Below are positions 46,614 through 56,848 of a stretch of 64,000 bases of DNA, piece by piece. Origin of the DNA: Ectopseudomonas mendocina (GTDB lineage Bacteria > Pseudomonadota > Gammaproteobacteria > Pseudomonadales > Pseudomonadaceae). The notes below the pieces were generated by a model. It did no database searches, was not told the DNA's origin, and was given only the letters and a program-made list of their open reading frames with translations. Each line of letters starts with the position of its first letter. The first letter of the stretch is position 1. The stretch is taken from NCBI RefSeq assembly GCF_008041835.1, contig NZ_VRYE01000007.1, positions 1 through 64,000 of the forward strand. Direction: 5' to 3'. The position numbers and the translations under genes are program-made.

Positions 46614-46654
46614 GGGCCTATAGCTCAGTTGGTTAGAGCAGAGGACTCATAATC
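46614..46654 (+). pseudogene. Truncated tRNA-Ile(CAU): 5' half of the resident gene
   Basis: Acceptor 5' strand GGGCCTA, D arm GCTC-AGTTGGTTA-GAGC, anticodon 5' strand GAGGA, loop CTCATAA and two bases of the 3' strand match a tRNA-Ile2 gene; after TC the sequence becomes unrelated. Variable, T and 3' acceptor strands are missing, so no tRNA can form. The cut in the anticodon arm is a classic integrase crossover position. This marks the left junction of the accessory island. Confidence 0.85.
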
Positions 46655-46685: not shown

Positions 46686-46762
46686 GGGCCTTTAGCTCAG
46701 TTGGTTAGAGCGCGCGACTCATAATCGCTCGGTCCCCGGTTCGAGCCCGGGAAGGCCCACCA
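46686..46762 (+). tRNA. tRNA-Ile(CAU), lysidine-modified isoleucine type
   Basis: 77 nt with encoded CCA. Acceptor GGGCCTT/AAGGCCC, D stem GCTC/GAGC, anticodon loop CTCATAA (CAU at 46720-46722), T stem CCCGG/CCGGG around TTCGAGC. The context CGACTCATAATCG resembles tRNA-Ile2 rather than elongator or initiator Met, so C34 would become lysidine and read AUA. C27-T43 is a mismatch at the base of the anticodon stem. Differs from the truncated resident copy upstream in anticodon and T stems, hence probably brought by the island. Confidence 0.9.
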
Positions 46763-47686: not shown

Positions 47687-47835
47687 GCGAATTATTTACG
47701 TGCAGGCACCAAACAATGCACTGAGGCTGATAGGTCGCATCACAACGCACAGCACTACCTCCCCACCATGATTTGCACCGACTGGTGGGCACTTTGTTAG
47801 AATCCCAACTTTCTCGCTGTCGGAGCAATACCGTG

Positions 47836-50800
47836 ATGGAACATCTGGATACCTTCCTGGCCCGCTGGCAAAAGGCCGGTGGTACTGAGCGCGCCAACTA
47901 CCAGTTGTTCCTCACCGAGCTGTGCAGCCTGCTGGGCCTGCCACTGCCGGAGCCGGCCGGCGACGACACCCGTGACAACGCCTATGTGTTCGAGCGCCGC
48001 GTGGTCATCAACCAGCCGGACGGCAGCAGCAACAACGGCTTCATCGACCTCTACAAGCGCGGCAGCTTCGTGCTGGAGGCCAAACAAACCGGCAAGACCC
48101 TGGACAGCTCCGGCTGGGACAAGGCCATGCTCAAGGCACACAACCAGGCCGACCAGTACGCCCGCGCCCTGCCCGCCGAAGAAGGTCGCCCGCCGTTCAT
48201 CTTAGTCGTGGACGTAGGCCGCAACATCGAACTGTATGCCGAGTTCAGCCGCTCCGGTGCCACCTACACGCCCTACCCGGACGCCCTCAACCATCGCATC
48301 CGCCTGGAAGACCTGCGTAAGGAAGACGTTCGCGAACGCCTGCGCGCCGTCTGGCTTGATCCGCTCTCACTCGACCCGTCCCGCCGCTCGGCCCGCGTCA
48401 CCCGCGAAATTGCCGATCAGCTGGCCAAACTGGCCAAGTCGCTGGAGGCCGATGGCCATCCGCCGCAACTGGTCGCCAGCTTCCTCATGCGCGCCCTGTT
48501 CACCATGTTCGCCGAGGACGTGGGCCTGCTCCCCGAGCGTGGTTTTACCGAGCTACTGCAACGCCTGAAGAACAAGCCGGACACCTTCGCGCCGATGCTC
48601 GAACACCTCTGGCAAGCCATGAACAGCGGTGGCTTCTCGCCGATCCTGGAAAGCACCTTGCTCAAGTTCAATGGCGGTCTGTTCGCTGAAGCCCAGGCTA
48701 TTGCCCTCGACCGCGACCAGATGGACCTGCTGCTCAATGCCTCCGAGGCCGATTGGCGTTATGTCGAACCGGCCATCTTCGGCACCCTGCTGGAACGCGC
48801 GCTCAACCCCCGCGAGCGCCACAAGCTCGGCGCCCACTACACGCCCCGCGCCTATGTTGAGCGCCTGGTACTGCCCACCGTCATCGAGCCGTTGCGTGCC
48901 GAATGGAAGGAAGTGCAGGTTGCCGCGCTCACCTATGAAGGCCAGGGCAAGCACAAGGAGGCCGTCGCCGAAATCCGCGCCTTCCACCGCCACCTGTGCG
49001 AGGTACGCGTACTCGATCCGGCAGCTGGCAGTGGCAATTTTCTTTATGTCACCCTGGAGCACATGAAGCGCCTGGAAGGCGAAGTGCTCAACCTGCTGCA
49101 CGACTTGGGCGAATCCCAGGGCCTGCTGGAACTGGAAGGTGTCACCGTCGACCCGCACCAATTCCTTGGCCTGGAAATCAACCCGCGTGCCGCCCGCATC
49201 GCCGAAATGGTGCTGTGGATCGGCTACCTGCAATGGCACTTCCGCACCCACGGCAAGGTCAACCCGCCCGAGCCGGTGCTGCGGGACTTCCACAACATCG
49301 AACACCGCGATGCGCTGATTGCCTATGACGCGATGGAGTTGCTGCGTGACGAAGCCGGAAACCCCATCACCCGTTGGGACGGCATCACCACCAAGACCAG
49401 CCCGATTACCGGCGAACAGGTGCCGGATGAGTCGGCGCAGGTGGAGCAGTACATCTACCGCAACCCGCGCAAGGCTGAGTGGCCGCAGGCGGAGTACATC
49501 GTGGGAAATCCGCCGTTTATTGGTGCCTCAACCATGCGCCGCGCTCTGGGAGATGGCTATGTCGATGCCGTGCGCGCCACCTGGAAGGAAGTGCCCGAGT
49601 CGGCGGATTTCGTCATGCACTGGTGGCATATCGCGGCTGAAGCCGTGCGCGCCGGGAGCGCCCGGCAGTTTGGCTTTATTACCACCAACAGCATCAAACA
49701 GACCTTCAACCGCCGCGTTGTACAGGCGCAGCTTGAAGCCAAGAACCCACTGAGTTTGATCTTTGCCATCCCTGACCACCCCTGGGTGGATGCCGGAGAT
49801 GGTGCGCAAGTGCGTATCGCTATGACCGTGGGCAGTGGAATTGATGGCGCTGGCCGACTGCTTCAGGTTCGCGAGGAAAATAGCAGCGATCAGGATCAGG
49901 ACGAGATAGAGGTCAACCTACAAGAACAGCAGGGCCGGCTCTTTGCTGATCTGAAAACCGGGGCGGATGTTGCGAGCAGTCAGCGTCTCAACGCCAACGC
50001 CGGAATTAGTAATCGTGGTGTTTGCTTGTTTGGTTCAGGATTCATCGTTAGCCAAGACGAAGCGAACGCACTTGGGCTTGGAAAAATTCATGGCCTTGAA
50101 AAACACATCAGGCATTACCGCAACGGGAAGGATCTGACTCAAACATCGCGCAATGCGATGGTAATTGACCTCTTCGGCTTAACCGCAGATGCAACACGTC
50201 AGTCGTTTCCAGAGGTTTACCAGTGGGTACTGGAAAAGGTGAAGCCGGAGCGCGATCAAAACAAGCGCGACAGCCGTAGAATCAACTGGTGGCTCTTTGG
50301 TGAAACAAACCCGAAAATTCGTCATCAGCTAGCTGGCCTCCCTCGCTATATCGCTACGGTCGAGACAACCAAGCACCGGGTGTTTCAATTTCTTGATGCG
50401 GAGATCTTGCCAGATAACATGCTGGTCAATATCGCCTGCGACGACGCTGCATATTTGGGGGTGGTTTCCAGCCGCCCACATAGTGCTTGGGCGTTGGCCG
50501 CAGGTGGCCGTCTTGGCGTCGGCAACGACCCGCGCTACAACAAAACCCGTTGTTTTGAAACCTTCCCCTTCCCGGACGCCACGCCAGAGCAACAGGCACA
50601 AATCCGCGACCTAGCCGAACGCCTCGACGCCCACCGCAAACGCCAGCAGGCACAGCACCCCGAGCTGACCCTGACCGGCATGTACAACGTGCTGGAAAAG
50701 CTGCGGGCCGGCGAGCCGCTGACCGCCAAAGACAAGACCATCCACGAACAGGGCCTGGTTTCCGTGCTACGCGAGCTACACGACGAACTGGACCGCGCCG

Positions 50801-51291
50801 TATTCGCCGCCTACGGCTGGGATGATCTGGCCGAGCAACTGGTCGGCAAACCCGGCGCCACCACGCCACTGCCGGACAAATCCGAAGCCCAGGCCGAAGC
50901 CGAGGAAGAACTGCTGCGCCGCCTGGTAGCCCTCAACGCCGAGCGCGCTGCCGAGGAAGCACGCGGCCTGGTGCGCTGGCTGCGCCCCGAGTACCAAAAC
51001 CCAAGCGCCGCCGTCGCGCCGGAGCAAAGCGAAGCCGAGCTGGACGACACAACGGACTCCCAATCAGCCCCTGCCGCCGCAGCCGCCCCCGGAAAACTCA
51101 CCTGGCCCAAGCAAATGCGCGAACAGGTCGCTGCCGTGCGCCACGCACTCAGCCAGAGCCCACTACCAGCCGACGCCCTCGCCGCCCAGTTCAAACGCTC
51201 ACCCAAGGTCGCTGTTCAGGCCGTACTGGATGCCCTGGAAGAGCTGGGCATGGTGCAGCAAGACGCAGACCAGTATCGTCTGGCCAGCTGA
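47836..51291 (+). CDS. Type IIG/MmeI-like restriction-modification protein
   Basis: 1151 residues in one chain. N-terminal PD-(D/E)xK nuclease candidate: Asp71 in GFIDLYKRG and Glu81-Ala-Lys83. A helical connector (about 170-360) leads to a gamma-class adenine methyltransferase with SAM motif [12 protein letters not shown] (about 393-404) and catalytic NPPFIG (Asn558). The C-terminal part holds a target-recognition region, [10 protein letters not shown], a Glu/Ala-rich linker and a winged-helix-like tail ([18 protein letters not shown]). Such enzymes cut and methylate with one polypeptide. A GTG three bases earlier is an alternative start. The next genes, a HipA-like kinase and DUF3037 protein, follow at 18 bp. 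A methylase-only role, as in DISARM or BREX, is the alternative. Confidence 0.85.
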
Positions 51292-51309
51292 TGCATAAGG
51301 GAGTCGGCA

Positions 51310-52053
51310 ATGGCCGAGGGTAATTACATAGAAGCTGTGGAGATCATCCGGCGACTGGAGGGCGGCATGACACGTCCCTTCCTATGCCGAGCCAGCAACG
51401 GTAAACACTATGTGGCCAAGGGCTTGGAGCTACCATCCGCCGAACGCATTGCCGAGCTGCTGTGCGCCCGCCTGGCCGCTGACTTCGGCTTGCCCATCCC
51501 CGAGCACGGCTATATCTACATTGACCCCGCCCTGCTGCGCTACAACCCAGAAGCACGCAGCGACCTGGGGCCTGGTGACAGCTTCGCCTTGGCCTATGTC
51601 GCGGACGCTGCAGACCTGCTCTATTCGCAAGCACTGCAGGTTCCTGTCGACCTGCAAAAAGCTGTTTTCACCTTTGATTGCTGGGTTGGCAACGGTGATC
51701 GTCAGCTAGGGCCGCTGGGCGGCCGCCCCAATCTGCTGATGTGCAGCACAGACAATCAGTTGCAGCTGATCGACCACAACCAGGCGTTTCACTGGCCGCA
51801 GGATGCCCAAGAGCTTGCTGAAAGCCATGTGTTTGGCCCAAGCAATCGGGCATGGCACCTGGATCTGGTCGACAAAGTTGAATACAGCCAGCGGATGCAC
51901 GAAACTGCCAAACGCTTTCGTGACCTATGCTCAGACATACCCGATGAATGGTGTGAATCTATCGGCGAACAGGGACTCGACATTCTGCTCGAAGAAATCG
52001 AAAGTAACCTGATGCGCTGCAATTCGGACGAGTTCTGGAGCGTCCTGCAATGA
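51310..52053 (+). CDS. HipA-like kinase
   Basis: 247 residues, about half of HipA and without its N-terminal subdomain. Kinase landmarks: HYVAKGLE with Lys37, ERIAELLCARLAADFGLPIPE helix, catalytic-type GNGDRQ (Asp130) with Asn141 in GRPNLL, and metal-binding Asp155 in LIDHNQAF. This short family is typically found next to DUF3037 genes, as here (4-base overlap). It starts 18 bp after the restriction-modification gene. It is not accompanied by a HipB antitoxin, so classical HipA persistence is unlikely. Substrate unknown; co-location with a restriction enzyme suggests defence. Confidence 0.8.
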   Translation: MAEGNYIEAVEIIRRLEGGMTRPFLCRASNGKHYVAKGLELPSAERIAELLCARLAADFGLPIPEHGYIYIDPALLRYNPEARSDLGPGDSFALAYVADAADLLYSQALQVPVDLQKAVFTFDCWVGNGDRQLGPLGGRPNLLMCSTDNQLQLIDHNQAFHWPQDAQELAESHVFGPSNRAWHLDLVDKVEYSQRMHETAKRFRDLCSDIPDEWCESIGEQGLDILLEEIESNLMRCNSDEFWSVLQ

Positions 52054-52859
52054 AATACGCCTGTCTTTACAGCATCGTGCGCTTCGCGCCTTTTGCCGAA
52101 ACCGAAGAGTTTGCCAATGTCGGCATCGTTCTCTCGGCCCCGGCTATCGGCCGCATGGAGTACAGGCTCGCCCGTAAAAACCTGAAACGGGTCAATCATT
52201 TCTTCGAGTGCAACAACCTGTTCGCCAAGGCCATGGAAATAGCCCAGAACGAACTGGACGCCGTGCAAGCGATGACGAAAGAAGCCCAGGAATCGCAGAT
52301 CGTTAACCACTTCCGCTTCCTGACAGAGCCCAAGGAATCGCTGATTCGCTTCAGCTCCATGCGCTCGATCCTGGTGGAAAACTTTGACGCGACCCTTGAT
52401 GAGCTGTTTGGCCGCTATATCGACCGCCAAGGCATGGCGCGTGATCGTCGTGAGGAAGTCATGGTGCGTGAAATTCGCACCCTGTTCACGGAAGCTTCTA
52501 TCCGTAGCTTCCGCGATGACACCCTGACTGGTGATCTAACCAAGCTTCACCTACCTCTGGTTCACCGCAATGAAGTCGTTGCCGCCATCAAGCCTTTAGC
52601 TTTTGATCAGGCCGAACCAAGCGCAATCCTCGACCACTGCGATCAGTGGCTGATGAAGTTCGCGCGTGCTGAGCGGGAAGGGGTTATTCAGCTGGAAAAC
52701 GTGCTCATACCTGTTGCGGCCCCGGCAGAGAGCGATTCGCCCCGCCACCGCAGAGCGGTGCAGATAGCCAAGGACAGCATCCAGGAACGCGGCCTGCAGC
52801 TGGTCGACTATCAGAACACCCAAAAAATCGCTGCCTTCGCGCAGCGCTACGCTCAATAG
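52050..52859 (+). CDS. DUF3037 family protein
   Basis: 269 residues. The N-terminal block YACLYSIVRFAPFAETEEFANVGIVLSAP is diagnostic of DUF3037. The remainder is mostly helical with charged stretches. Its ATG overlaps the kinase stop by 4 bases (ATGA), so a 1:1 partnership is likely: regulator, substrate or antitoxin of the HipA-like kinase. No enzymatic motif recognised. A perfect 13-bp terminator follows, ending the three-gene unit. Confidence 0.82.
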   Translation: MKYACLYSIVRFAPFAETEEFANVGIVLSAPAIGRMEYRLARKNLKRVNHFFECNNLFAKAMEIAQNELDAVQAMTKEAQESQIVNHFRFLTEPKESLIRFSSMRSILVENFDATLDELFGRYIDRQGMARDRREEVMVREIRTLFTEASIRSFRDDTLTGDLTKLHLPLVHRNEVVAAIKPLAFDQAEPSAILDHCDQWLMKFARAEREGVIQLENVLIPVAAPAESDSPRHRRAVQIAKDSIQERGLQLVDYQNTQKIAAFAQRYAQ

Positions 52860-52880
52860 CCCAGGCAGCTTTCCTGCTCA

Positions 52881-52915
52881 GCACAAGGCCCGGTAAATCC
52901 GGGCCTTGTGCTTTT
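52881..52915. terminator. Strong bidirectional terminator
   Basis: GCACAAGGCCCGG-taaat-CCGGGCCTTGTGC, perfect 13-bp stem, then TTTTATT on the plus strand. Lies between the convergent DUF3037 and RelE genes. Confidence 0.93.
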
Positions 52916-52979: not shown

Positions 52980-53246
52980 TCAGCGGTAAATTTCTCGGCG
53001 GTTGCCAAGCTGTAGGACGAGTATCCGCAAGGCTCCGTCCTGGATGTCGCAGATCACCCGGAAGTCTCCTACACGATACCGCCACAAGCCACCCAATGGG
53101 CCTGTAAGCGCCTTGCCAGTGGTTCTCGGGTCATCCCGGCTGGACACCCGCTCATCCATAAAGTCAAGAATGCGCTTCGCTGACTGTTTGTCGAGCTTAC
53201 GCAACTGTGTTTTGGCCGTGTCGGTGTAATCAATCGTCCAAGCCAA
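52980..53246 (-). CDS. RelE/ParE-family toxin
   Basis: 88 residues. Fold markers: WTIDYTDTAKTQLRKLDKQ at the N-terminus, GLWRYRVGDFRVICDI core strands and LVLQLGNRREIYR C-terminus, with Arg and Tyr residues used by ribosome-dependent mRNases. Its start overlaps the antitoxin gene by 17 bp. Closest to RelE rather than ParE by the C-terminal RREIYR motif, though function is not proven. Confidence 0.9.
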   Translation of the reverse strand: MAWTIDYTDTAKTQLRKLDKQSAKRILDFMDERVSSRDDPRTTGKALTGPLGGLWRYRVGDFRVICDIQDGALRILVLQLGNRREIYR

Positions 53247-53457
53247 GGTCTTTCCTTACGTCCGCAGCAGAGTGAACGGCCTCTGTTTTTTTACGGACAC
53301 GCTCCAGGACTTCAGCCGCGAGGTAGTAGTCCTCAAGGTCAGCCAAGCCGTTATCGATGATTTCACGCAGATAATACGCCTTGGTACGCCCAGTGCTGGC
53401 CGCCAGAAAATCTAGGCGCTGCTCAACTTCGGGTGCCAATCTGATGGAAGTGGCCAT
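53230..53457 (-). CDS. Ribbon-helix-helix antitoxin of the RelE toxin
   Basis: 75 residues from MATSIRLAPEVEQRL behind GGGG. N-terminal RHH DNA-binding segment (ATSIRLAPEVEQRLDFLAAS, GRTKAYYLREII) and a C-terminal toxin-binding tail (LERVRKKTEAVHSAADVRKD). First gene of the pair, as usual for RelBE. An ATG five codons upstream is possible. Likely autorepressor of the operon. Confidence 0.9.
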   Translation of the reverse strand: MATSIRLAPEVEQRLDFLAASTGRTKAYYLREIIDNGLADLEDYYLAAEVLERVRKKTEAVHSAADVRKDLGLDD

Positions 53458-53798
53458 GTCTAATAACCCCATGCGATACGTGTATTCACATTATCACAAA
53501 TCTACGCACTGGCACTCAAGCAAGGGAAGACACGATGCTTAGCGTATGCTTCTTCCGAATTCTGAGGGCTCCCCACGTCTTGCCTGGCCGACGCAGCTAG
53601 CCTGTAGCCCAAGAGCTACATCTTTCGGCACTTCACCCGTTTCTGATGCCCAGGGGCTACAAATGACTGCTCTCCACGATGTTTCTGAGATGCTGAAAGA
53701 GGCGCGAAGCTTAGCCGTCCTCAGTCCATGAACAGTGGACGTACTGCTCACAGCCTCGGTGAGTGCCAAATCAGGTAAAGGTCATCACCCGCTGCGAA
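53458..53798. other. Intergenic sequence without a supported gene
   Basis: Short ORFs on both strands have no recognisable similarity. A 22-codon frame (start 53663, MTALHDVSEMLKEARSLAVL) could be the N-terminus of a lost gene. The promoter of the RelE/RHH pair should lie in 53458-53540, but no clear hexamers were picked out. Confidence 0.4.
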
Positions 53799-54258: not shown

Positions 54259-54348
54259 ATGGACTTCACACCCATCATCGCTCAGGTCTGGGGCATGCTG
54301 ACCTGGTTTATCCCAGCCGCACTGCTGATCGGCCTGCTCAAGTCGTAA
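54259..54348 (+). pseudogene. 5' fragment of a NERD-nuclease-like gene split by IS66
   Basis: Reads MDFTPIIAQVWGMLTWFIPA then ALLIGLLKS and a stop created by the IS66 end. It is an N-terminal membrane helix. Joining across the insertion sequence and removing one target copy gives LLKSPWAKGHMGELLVRLF, the conserved start of nuclease-related-domain proteins carried on integrative elements. Ribosome site AGGA precedes it. Confidence 0.75.
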
Positions 54349-54375
54349 GCGTCCGCCGAACTCACCTTGCGTGAT

Positions 54376-55902
54376 TCAGGCAGGTACCCACTGATGCGGC
54401 AGTAGTTGGCCGATCTCACTCGCCCGCTGCGTCGGCAGTCGTGTCAGCACGTCCTTGAGATAGGCATACGGATCATGTCCATTCATCCGCGCCGACTGGA
54501 TCAGGCTCATGATCGCCGCCGCGCGTTTGCCGCTGCGTAGCGACCCGGCAAACAACCAGTTCGAGCGCCCCAGTGCCCATGGCCGGATCTGGTTCTCGAC
54601 CTGGTTGTTGTCGATGGGCACAGCTCCATCCTCCAGGTAGCGCGTCAGCGCTACCCAGCGTTTGAGGCTGTAATCCAAGGCTTTTGCCGTGGCTGATCCG
54701 TTGGGCACAAGATCACGCTGGGCCAGCATCCAGTCATGCAGCGTATCGAGGATCGGTGAGGCCTTTTCCTGCCGTATTCGCCAGCGCTCTTCATCGCTCA
54801 TGTCCCGTGCCTGCCGCTCGATTTCGTATAAACCGCCCATCGCGTGCAGTGCCTGTTCAGCCAACTGGCTTTTGTTCGCCGCGTGAAGATCGAAGAACTT
54901 GCGGCGGGCGTGGGCCATGCAGCCAATTTCGGTGATGCCCTGCTCGAAGCTGGCCTTGTAACCGGCGAAGTCGTCGCAGACCAGCTTGCCGTTCCACTGA
55001 CCCAGAAAATTGCGCGCATGCTCACCAGCACGGCTGGGGCTGAAGTCGTACACCACGGCCTTCAGATCGGTGAAGGGCGTGGTGCTGTAGGCCCAGACGT
55101 ATGCCCGATGGGTTTTCTTCTCGCCTGGGGTGAGCATTTGCACCGGGGTTTCGTCAGCGTGGATCACGCGTTGGGCCAGCACGGCTTCGCGCAGGGCATC
55201 GACCAGCGGCTGGAGCTGCACGCCGGTTTGTCCGACCCACTGGGCCAGTGTCGAGCGAGCGATGGCCAGGCCGGCACGGGCAAAGATTTTCTCCTGCCGG
55301 TACAGCGGCAGGTGGTCGGCGAATTTGGCCACCATCACGTGAGCCAGGAGGCCGGCGGTGGGGATGCCCTTGTCGATCACCTGGGCCGGCACAGGGGCCT
55401 GGATCAGGGTTTCGCACTGGCGACAGGCCCATTTGCCACGCACGTGCTGCTCAACGGTGAACACGCCCGGCGTGTAATCCAGCTTTTCGCTGACGTCTTC
55501 ACCGATGCGTTGCAGCTGGCAGCCGCAGGCGCACTGGGTGTTCTCCGGCTCGTGACGAATCACGGTTCGCGGAAATTGCGCGGGCAGCGCTGTGCGCTTG
55601 GGTTGTTGGCGCGGTTCGGCTGGAGCAACCGGAGGATTGACGGCTTTCAACTCCGCCTCGATGGCGGCGATGTCGGTGTCGAGCAGGTCATCCAGCAGGC
55701 TGCCCTGGTCAGGGCTCAGCTGCTCGCTGCGCTTGGCGAACTTGTGCCGCTTGTACCAGGCGATTTCGTGGGTGAGCTGCTCGATGATGGTTTGATCACG
55801 GTGGATCTTTTTGCCCATCGAATCGACCTGCGTGAGCAACTGCGCGGCCAGGGCGCGCAGTTGCTCAGCTGTCAGTTGGTCGAGATTGGGCGAGGAAGTC
55901 AT
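54376..55902 (-). CDS. tnpC: IS66 transposase TnpC
   Basis: 508 residues. N-terminal coiled coil (LRALAAQLLTQVDSMGKKIH) then a zinc-finger-like CACGCQLQ/CRQCE region, the DDE core (HADETPVQM, CDDFAGYKAS, and the late VENQIRPWALGRSNWLF with Glu) and a C-terminal domain SVKMNGHDPYAYL-like. Full length for the family. Confidence 0.95.
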   Translation of the reverse strand: MTSSPNLDQLTAEQLRALAAQLLTQVDSMGKKIHRDQTIIEQLTHEIAWYKRHKFAKRSEQLSPDQGSLLDDLLDTDIAAIEAELKAVNPPVAPAEPRQQPKRTALPAQFPRTVIRHEPENTQCACGCQLQRIGEDVSEKLDYTPGVFTVEQHVRGKWACRQCETLIQAPVPAQVIDKGIPTAGLLAHVMVAKFADHLPLYRQEKIFARAGLAIARSTLAQWVGQTGVQLQPLVDALREAVLAQRVIHADETPVQMLTPGEKKTHRAYVWAYSTTPFTDLKAVVYDFSPSRAGEHARNFLGQWNGKLVCDDFAGYKASFEQGITEIGCMAHARRKFFDLHAANKSQLAEQALHAMGGLYEIERQARDMSDEERWRIRQEKASPILDTLHDWMLAQRDLVPNGSATAKALDYSLKRWVALTRYLEDGAVPIDNNQVENQIRPWALGRSNWLFAGSLRSGKRAAAIMSLIQSARMNGHDPYAYLKDVLTRLPTQRASEIGQLLPHQWVPA

Positions 55903-55963
55903 GCCGCTGATTGTGCCAGAGCAGGCGCTCAGCGCAGATACACCGATGGGCTAATGGCTGGTG

Positions 55964-56299
55964 CTACAGCACTGTGATTGCGCCGGCTGCACCAACGCGC
56001 TGCCAGGGCAAACCCAGAACCAACGCCTGAAGTTGCTCGCCGTCGAGTTCGACTTCCGAACCGTGGCGGATGCCTGGCCAGTGAAACTTGCCCTGGTTCA
56101 ATCGTCGTGCGGCCAGCCAGATACCCACGCCGTCATGCACCAGGACTTTCATGCGGTTGGCGCGACGATTGGCGAAGAGATAGGCGCAGTGGGGCTTCGC
56201 GGCACCGAACACCGCCACCACGCGGGCCAACGCGGTTTCAGTACCCGCGCGCATGTCCATGGGTTCGGTGGCGAGCCAGATGGTATCGATGCGGATCAC
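55964..56299 (-). CDS. tnpB: IS66 accessory protein TnpB
   Basis: 111 residues with the family pattern IWLATEPMDMRAGTETALARV, PHCAYLFANRRANRMKVLVHDGVGIWLAARRLNQGKF. Required for IS66 transposition; biochemical role unclear. The start overlaps the tnpA stop (ATGA). Confidence 0.94.
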   Translation of the reverse strand: MIRIDTIWLATEPMDMRAGTETALARVVAVFGAAKPHCAYLFANRRANRMKVLVHDGVGIWLAARRLNQGKFHWPGIRHGSEVELDGEQLQALVLGLPWQRVGAAGAITVL

Positions 56300-56613
56300 T
56301 GGGTGAGCCCACGGACAAAGCGGGCGCAGCCTTCAGGGTCGGAGGCTGGCCATTTGACGGTGATCGCTTGCTCGCCAAGCGGTAGCTCGATCATCACCGA
56401 TGCTTCAGTCGACCGTTTAGGCGCAGCCCTCACTGGAACGAATGCCGGCAACGCAGCTGGCAGTTGATCTCGATAAAGCGGTAGCCACTTGCGAATGACG
56501 TTGGCGTTGATGCCGTGGCGGATGGCAACGCTGGAGACGGTCGCGCCGGGTTGCAGGCACTCCTGAACAACCTGGGCCTTGAATGGTTTGGGGTAAGAGC
56601 TTCGTTGGCGCAT
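56296..56613 (-). CDS. tnpA: IS66 accessory protein TnpA
   Basis: 105 residues. N-terminal helix-turn-helix typical of IS66/IS3 OrfA proteins (YPKPFKAQVVQECLQPGATV, AIRHGINANVIRKWL). First gene of the element, probably binding the ends or the promoter. Confidence 0.93.
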   Translation of the reverse strand: MRQRSSYPKPFKAQVVQECLQPGATVSSVAIRHGINANVIRKWLPLYRDQLPAALPAFVPVRAAPKRSTEASVMIELPLGEQAITVKWPASDPEGCARFVRGLTQ

Positions 56614-56713
56614 GGGAATCCCGGCGATAAGGGCTATCGCGTCCGCTTAAAAATACGCGGACACCATCGCCCTTAATGCTGGAGTTCGGAAGGTGACTTG
56701 GCTGGACGCTTAC

Positions 56714-56848
56714 CTCAAGTCCCCATGGGCAAAGGGTCATATGGGCGAACTCCTGGTGCGGCTATTTGCCCATTGGCAGCTGGATAAGCAAATCCGCCGA
56801 GCTGCTCGACGCGTTGAAAAAGCATGTTCAGCACTTAGACCCGAATAG
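56714..56848 (+). pseudogene. 3' fragment of the IS66-split NERD-like gene
   Basis: Continues in frame from the left fragment through the duplicated CTCAAGTC: LKSPWAKGHMGELLVRLFAH, then WQLDKQ. After that homology ends and the frame stops at 56846-56848, so the gene had already lost its NERD catalytic body, replaced by sequence belonging to another reading frame. Confidence 0.7.

Follow-up and report, generated by a model that had tools for sequence, protein, structure and literature searches.

A probable defence operon joining an MmeI-like restriction-modification gene to a HipAD pair in Ectopseudomonas mendocina

HipAD is a published anti-phage pair in which the gene of a HipA-like kinase precedes that of a DUF3037 protein. 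We describe a copy of it directly behind a restriction-modification (RM) gene in Ectopseudomonas mendocina, in positions 1 to 64,000 of contig NZ_VRYE01000007.1 (the window, 64,000 nucleotides). As far as its excerpted text goes, PMC12548924 describes a HipA-like/DUF3037 pair beside Retron-Sda1 that defends against phage Bas51. There, deletion of the kinase abolishes defence, deletion of the DUF3037 gene is toxic, and the tested retron parts are dispensable. The excerpted text of PMC13092281 calls this architecture DS-6 and, citing Brenes and Laub 2025, renames it HipAD. According to that text, mutating a predicted catalytic residue of DS-6A loses defence, AlphaFold3 predicted HipA–HipD and, more weakly, HipD–DNA contacts, and DS-6B carries a DUF1829 as well. 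In record PV340545 (phage PhiR5_1), a 'HipA toxin' and a 'HipD antitoxin' overlap by 4 bp and follow cI. The candidates that PADLOC labels PDC are described as found by 'guilt-by-embedding' (PMC12988326, PMC10855318, both in excerpt), so their linkage to other defence systems is not new as such.

By gene content, the window's kinase–DUF3037 pair is a member of HipAD (DS-6; PADLOC PDC-M66), which overturns the view of an initial annotation of the window that such pairs have no known function. As in HipAD, a HipA_2 kinase gene is followed directly by the DUF3037 gene. Their 4-bp overlap is the commonest spacing, seen at 105 of 189 pair loci (open reading frames (ORFs) taken from the first possible start; repeats included; 78 clusters at 90% HipD identity). 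What is new is the RM–HipAD arrangement and its recurrence; the pair and the RM families were already known. The initial annotation knew of no description of the trio, and a full-text literature search, with preprints and most subscription papers outside its coverage, likewise returned no RM–HipAD operon. We consider it likely that the three genes make up a compact defence operon in which two self-sufficient systems, RM and HipAD, share a leader and a terminator, with activities assigned by analogy to homologues.

The trio and its recurrence in Pseudomonadaceae

The three genes lie on one strand, with 18 bp between the RM and kinase genes, and a terminator closes the set. ORFs and a terminator scan agree with the coordinates, gap, overlap and terminator first annotated. 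The RM ORF runs from an ATG to the stop codon at the end of its interval in Table 1, and an alternative open TTG start is present at 47773. Seven terminator-like sites occur in the region, compared with 6.4 in shuffles, and that of the trio has the longest stem. The leader carries the sequence TTAGAAT ~33–39 bp before the start codon. A promoter scan found no full sigma-70 match in the leader, and its promoter activity is therefore only inferred.

Table 1 Features of the RM–HipAD locus
Feature	Coordinates	Strand	Basis
Leader, 40 bp	47796..47835	+	-10-like TTAGAAT, RM ribosome-binding region; blastn and by-eye comparison
MmeI-like type IIG RM protein, 1151 aa (P0001)	47836..51291	+	Pfam, PADLOC, motifs
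HipA_2 kinase (HipA of HipAD), 247 aa	51310..52053	+	Pfam, PADLOC, AlphaFold2 fold
HipD (DUF3037 protein), 269 aa (P0003)	52050..52859	+	Pfam, PDC-M66B, fold
Intrinsic terminator, 14-pair stem, T tail	52880..52912	+	Terminator scan, conservation
tRNA-Met downstream of rpoD	46686..46762	+	ARAGORN; likely insertion hotspot

The arrangement recurs. Twenty of 298 Pseudomonadaceae genomes have a HipA_2 match, nine of them strong (E below 1e-60). At five of the nine strong loci an intact RM gene lies directly upstream of the pair: in the window, in G068 (P. jinjuensis), in G204 (S. xanthomarina), in G096 (S. stutzeri 4C29), and in G202, where the contig ends inside hipD. The RM gene is broken at three (G003, G110, and G153), and at the last, a distant pair in G118, the 12 kb viewed contain no RM. 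Copies whose RM and kinase are as little as 75% and 61% identical still have the same gene order and a spacing of 16–18 bp. Because three genes recur in the same order in other Pseudomonadaceae, the trio goes beyond chance, and the proposal of the initial annotation that it is one likely operon with a defence role is supported.

The flanks (1.07 kb upstream, 1073 bp, and 1.44 kb downstream of the trio) were compared with 17 locus files, some of them repeats. Upstream, homology to other RM loci begins 40 bp before the RM gene (blastn), and the leader is conserved, by eye, among seven RM loci, including two whose RM lacks the pair. Downstream, six loci stay homologous for ~71 bp, a stretch that includes the terminator, and diverge thereafter. 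The terminator sequence is kept in the window and in L022–L026, and is absent from five other compared loci (L027, L092, L104, L105, and L107). Like that of the window, the related pairs of S. stutzeri 4C29 (L023) and P. sp. GM21 (L027) have rpoD on their upstream side.

Several other features surround the trio. Just beyond its terminator, on the minus strand (52980–53472), a ParE-family toxin (ParE_toxin, E 1.4e-12) and an 80-aa upstream partner with no Pfam match make up a second toxin–antitoxin-like pair of the island. An IS66-family element (54345–56713; transposase DDE_Tnp_IS66, E 3.6e-109; inverted repeats 54345–54371 and 56687–56713) is flanked by pieces of a NERD-domain gene (54259–54345 and 56714–56800), which aligns full-length in L022–L026. 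A 41-bp tRNA-like stretch (46614–46654) lies 72 bp upstream of tRNA-Met and is 88% identical to 46686–46726. ARAGORN calls the second copy only, and the repeat is possibly the mark of an insertion at the tRNA.

The three proteins

By its sequence, the RM protein belongs to the MmeI-like type IIG enzymes. Pfam finds MmeI_N, MmeI_hel, MmeI_Mtase, and MmeI_TRD in a single chain, the PADLOC type IIG profile PDLC03627 scores 1600 bits, and the solved structure of MmeI (5hr4) aligns with E 3.5e-43. Residues D71, E81, and K83 of the PD-(D/E)XK site, the S-adenosylmethionine motif DPAAGSGNF at 394, and the NPPF motif with N558 are present, including both residues that had been proposed as active-site targets (E81 and N558). 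Methylation and cleavage are thus predicted. The columns of the target recognition domain (TRD), ~ residues 660–900, are 50–80% identical within the clade, and the rest of the protein is mostly 80–100% identical. This pattern suggests that target specificity is exchanged beside a constant HipAD pair, and therefore each RM copy probably reads a different site.

The kinase matches HipA_2 (Pfam, E 9e-81) and PADLOC PDC-M66A. Its conserved residues are K37, E49, N128, D130, N141, and D155, of which D130, N141, and D155, named before as catalytic, are invariant in alignments of 15 and 43 sequences. Comparison by sequence with solved structures gave no match. The AlphaFold2 model (pLDDT 92.8, pTM 0.90) superimposes on HipA (4pu4; Z 12.4, 3.5 Å, 193 residues) and HipT (8ezr; Z 12.2, 3.8 Å, 194 residues), and is somewhat closer to CtkA (Z 14.3) and PI4K type II (Z 13.9). 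The immediate neighbours of the kinase gene are the RM and DUF3037 genes, neither of which is HipB-like by Pfam, consistent with the earlier statement that a HipB (Xre) partner is lacking.

HipD matches DUF3037 over ~ residues 7–124 (Pfam, E 8e-23) and the profile PDC-M66B, and is 34.7% identical over residues 1–266 to HipD of Escherichia phage PhiR5_1. Pfam finds DUF3037 alone in it, with DS-6B compared by description only, and DUF1829 is absent from the best 25 of 34 Pfam families listed for 46 HipD relatives. The model (pLDDT 90.9, pTM 0.55) has a two-domain appearance. The C-terminal domain, ~130–269, is predicted to have a restriction-endonuclease-like fold, with the secondary structure (DSSP) in the predicted order helix-strand-strand-strand-helix-strand. 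Its best fold matches are BsoBI (Z 8.4, 2.6 Å, 120 residues) and Cdn1 (Z 8.1), followed by XPF (7.7), Card1 (7.6), Hef, and Ecl18kI (Z 7.4–7.7 for these four), all of which we take to be PD-(D/E)XK folds. These Z values are moderate, and GTPases and other unrelated folds also match with Z ~6 to 8, so we base the assignment to a nuclease-like fold on the leading matches and the topology. With the whole of HipD as query, Foldseek found nothing at E ≤ 0.001. Of 46 HipD relatives, 44 retain K181, and all carry an acidic residue at positions 135 and 195. The position of the catalytic (D/E)XK acid, residue 179, two before K181, is acidic in none of the 46, and a canonical nuclease active site is therefore unlikely. 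The probably inactive nuclease-like domain offers a testable idea of what HipD senses. At L083 and L084, HipA_2-related kinases are followed by a short DUF3037 protein (~130 aa) without this C-terminal half; these pairs represent a different subfamily of the kinase–DUF3037 pair.

Separation of RM and HipAD, and their linkage elsewhere

PrrC and RloC guard type I RM. Evidence against silencing of this kind in HipAD is indirect and comes from intact pairs that no intact RM adjoins. Pieces of the 3' end of the RM gene stand directly before such pairs at L026 (807 bp), at L024 (397 bp), on plasmid pMPC6-328K (163 bp), and in P. sp. GM21 (63 bp). In G153 the RM gene is split, and its N-terminal part lies ~84 kb away. 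In G003, the genome of L024, no P0001-like match besides the remnant was found at E ≤ 0.001, in a search for second RM genes that covered G003 and G110, with the GM21 genome and the plasmid hosts outside it. Three P. syringae-group plasmid loci, viewed of seven records ~90% identical over all HipD, have no RM in the 1.5 kb upstream, just, by eye, a short shared stretch ahead of the start codon. Between pairs of RM-less lineages, the ratio of nonsynonymous to synonymous substitution (Nei–Gojobori, phylogeny ignored) is 0.07–0.19 for the kinase and 0.08–0.22 for HipD. These values indicate that purifying selection maintains the pair even where no intact RM adjoins it. RM is thus probably dispensable for the pair, and for the same reason HipD alone can probably silence HipA. 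A role of RM as the silencer of HipA is unlikely, given intact, selected pairs behind RM scars or no RM.

The converse, RM without HipAD, also occurs. A P. fulva plasmid carries an RM gene 90.6% identical to that of the window that lacks the pair and has an IS1182-type transposase next to it. The pair follows five of 11 full-length homologues in the family sample, that of the window included, and none of the eight that the class sample contains apart from the window's own, which rejects the idea that this RM family generally carries the pair. The pair is absent from all four plasmid RM loci viewed of 382 records with a match. In place of the pair, Pfam finds Mrr behind the RM gene in G226, G048, and G018 (loci L136, L137, and L141); in G226 (78% RM identity) Mrr is followed by SIR2 (PADLOC), and in G584 (L071) an IrrE-domain protein and DUF4411 stand behind the RM gene. 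The slot behind this RM family is, by its gene content, a variable cargo site with defence-like genes.

We then ask how often RM accompanies HipAD elsewhere. The distant sample comprises 14 genomes with distant, full-length-type pairs. Left out were G475 (4.5-kb contig), G837 (HipD frame interrupted by a stop, no adjacent kinase found), and genomes with a weak or short DUF3037 (G309, G461, G503, G520, G570, G921, G937, G1019, G1023, and G1027). The search for RM genes relied on P0001-like ORFs, N6_Mtase matches, and inspection of the listed ORFs by eye, and could miss other RM types; little of one flank is visible at L088 and L093. RM genes are present at four of the 14 pairs. In G575, HsdM-HsdS-HsdR (type I) precedes the pair, and the kinase frame overlaps the RM gene. 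In G981, HsdR-HsdM-HsdS (type I) and a 301-aa gene precede it, and in G828, an MmeI-like RM 64% identical to that of the window and a 266-aa gene. In G323, a short methylase remnant lies 87 bp downstream of the pair. A further sample of four new loci, for which the RM test was fixed before the neighbourhoods were fetched and the N6_Mtase search was outside it, adds HsdR-HsdM-HsdS-HipA-HipD in G1031, with a start–stop overlap of the kinase frame and the RM gene; no RM was seen at the other three.

In total, four of 18 distant genome loci adjoin a complete RM operon (type I at three, MmeI-like at one) and a fifth adjoins a methylase remnant, which bears out the expectation that the pair is associated with RM genes elsewhere; at 14 of the 18, no complete RM operon was found with this limited detection. 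In the HipD tree, RM-linked pairs are scattered among unlinked ones, and since several supports are low, the linkage in G575, G1031, and G323 may go back to a single old association. HipD relatives occur in 20 records of the plasmid collection, at least two of them of chromosome size, and an intact RM stands beside none of seven pair loci viewed of the 20 records. Among viral contigs, 161 stretches encode HipD relatives, of which 80 were kept. No viral locus with a recognised pair contains a P0001-like ORF, and the gene before the kinase starts, by eye, like a CI-type helix-turn-helix repressor in ~38 of 57 listed viral cluster representatives. A DNA search of E. coli genomes gave no match. 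The idea that the pair occurs only with RM is rejected by the plasmid, distant, and viral loci without RM. At the viral locus L219, a gene with a DnaQ-type exonuclease-like start overlaps hipA by 4 bp and is another possible co-transcribed partner of hipA.

Competing explanations and relation to known systems

In the operon of two self-sufficient systems that we favour, one leader and one terminator probably serve all three genes. RM would methylate host DNA and cut unmodified phage DNA. The HipA kinase would stop growth, and HipD would bind and silence HipA until infection relieves the block and infected cells shut down. Restriction would thus be the first layer, and arrest by HipAD the second, for phages that pass RM. 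The two would share transcription and often mobility, with HipAD independent of RM. The initial annotation had likewise proposed the kinase as a toxin and the DUF3037 protein as its brake, and the published homologues lend this support, as one deletion abolishes defence and the other is toxic. Of its two-layer scheme, we retain restriction plus HipAD. The built-in machine fired when RM fails is not supported, in view of intact pairs behind decayed RMs, the distant loci without a complete RM operon, viral pairs that often follow a cI-like gene, and RMs without the pair. Any coupling of RM and HipAD beyond co-transcription is hypothetical.

Several points weigh against this interpretation. A metallophosphoesterase gene and a NERD-domain gene follow the pair in L022, L023, L025, and L026, and a NERD gene lies upstream of the RM remnant in L024. 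Because the neighbourhood shared by close relatives passes the terminator, the trio may be just part of a defence island, and by sequence comparison these relatives have a larger island of which it forms the conserved front part; a cassette with two sharp borders is accordingly weakened. Since the leader has no full sigma-70 match, a further promoter may lie within the 3' end of the RM gene, which four remnants keep. G110, the genome of L026, has a second, full-length RM elsewhere (70% identity). The kinase is just 24–38% identical to aligned distant and phage-borne relatives, and 35% to the kinase of the named HipAD, so its target may differ.

The shared island, together with the variable slot behind the RM family (Mrr, SIR2, IrrE with DUF4411) and the pair-less class-sample RMs (50–63% identical), would suit chance neighbours, the pair having landed behind RM once in Pseudomonadaceae with incidental read-through and no joint function. 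We regard this as improbable, since a common leader and terminator enclose the three genes, order and spacing hold across diverged copies, and RM linkage is found elsewhere in the HipD tree. RM linkage also speaks for a guard module, in which HipAD monitors RM and HipA is released when an anti-restriction protein of the phage binds or disables RM. HipAD lies at the 3' end of different types of RM operon, MmeI-like in the window clade and G828 and type I in G575, G981, and G1031. N6_Mtase matches lie within 5 kb of three of the 14 pairs, compared with 0.17 expected under uniform placement (P 6e-4, which overstates significance because defence genes cluster), and the predicted fold of HipD resembles restriction endonucleases. 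Set against these are the purifying selection on pairs without an intact RM beside them, which makes RM an improbable silencer, the 14 distant loci without a complete RM operon (one with the methylase remnant), and the single RM among the four further loci; we hold a guard module to be unlikely. Addiction, with HipAD stabilising a mobile element by post-segregational killing and phage defence secondary, would fit a pair that outlives RM and occurs in the plasmid collection. It is very improbable, as homologues, in the excerpted reports, defend against phage and lose defence on kinase deletion or mutation.

A more general guard is a doubtful but attractive extension: HipAD would stand behind DNA-surveillance genes, and the degenerate nuclease-like HipD domain would sense DNA or RM-disarming phage proteins and release HipA. 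If so, HipD in prophages would sense proteins that disarm the repressor system, and one exchangeable sensor–toxin pair would back up RM of type I and type IIG as well as lysogeny modules. In any case, the findings link a widely distributed and mechanistically unexplained pair with restriction enzymes at more than one place in its tree. Close pairs with intact, decayed, or no RM are natural comparisons that can separate RM-dependent from independent triggering, and a guard function with RM inactivation as one trigger is the most interesting test.

Compared with known systems, the operon of two self-sufficient systems combines familiar parts. Like MmeI and other type IIG/IIL enzymes, the window RM has nuclease, methyltransferase, and TRD in a single chain, with the four MmeI Pfam domains and D71/E81/K83 in common. 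It is longer than MmeI (1151 versus 919 aa, with ~200 residues past the end of the MmeI alignment) and differs by its linkage to HipAD. The kinase shares the fold of HipA and HipT from HipAB and HipBST, but has a DUF3037 protein in the place of an adjoining HipB, and its 247 residues align with residues 150–426 of the HipA chain. In PrrC/RloC-type guards, a toxin gene is also carried with an RM operon, as in the window. However, the toxin there is an anticodon nuclease, whereas HipAD has a kinase and persists intact beside decayed or absent RM. At the Retron-Sda1 locus too, the kinase–DUF3037 pair rides with another defence gene and acts alone; the partner there is a retron reverse transcriptase and here an RM. 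The closest relative remains HipAD itself (DS-6; PDC-M66), with the same HipA_2 gene and an overlapping DUF3037 start. DUF1829, described for DS-6B, is not reported by Pfam in the window HipD, and the copy of phage PhiR5_1 follows cI, whereas that of the window forms the 3' part of an RM operon.

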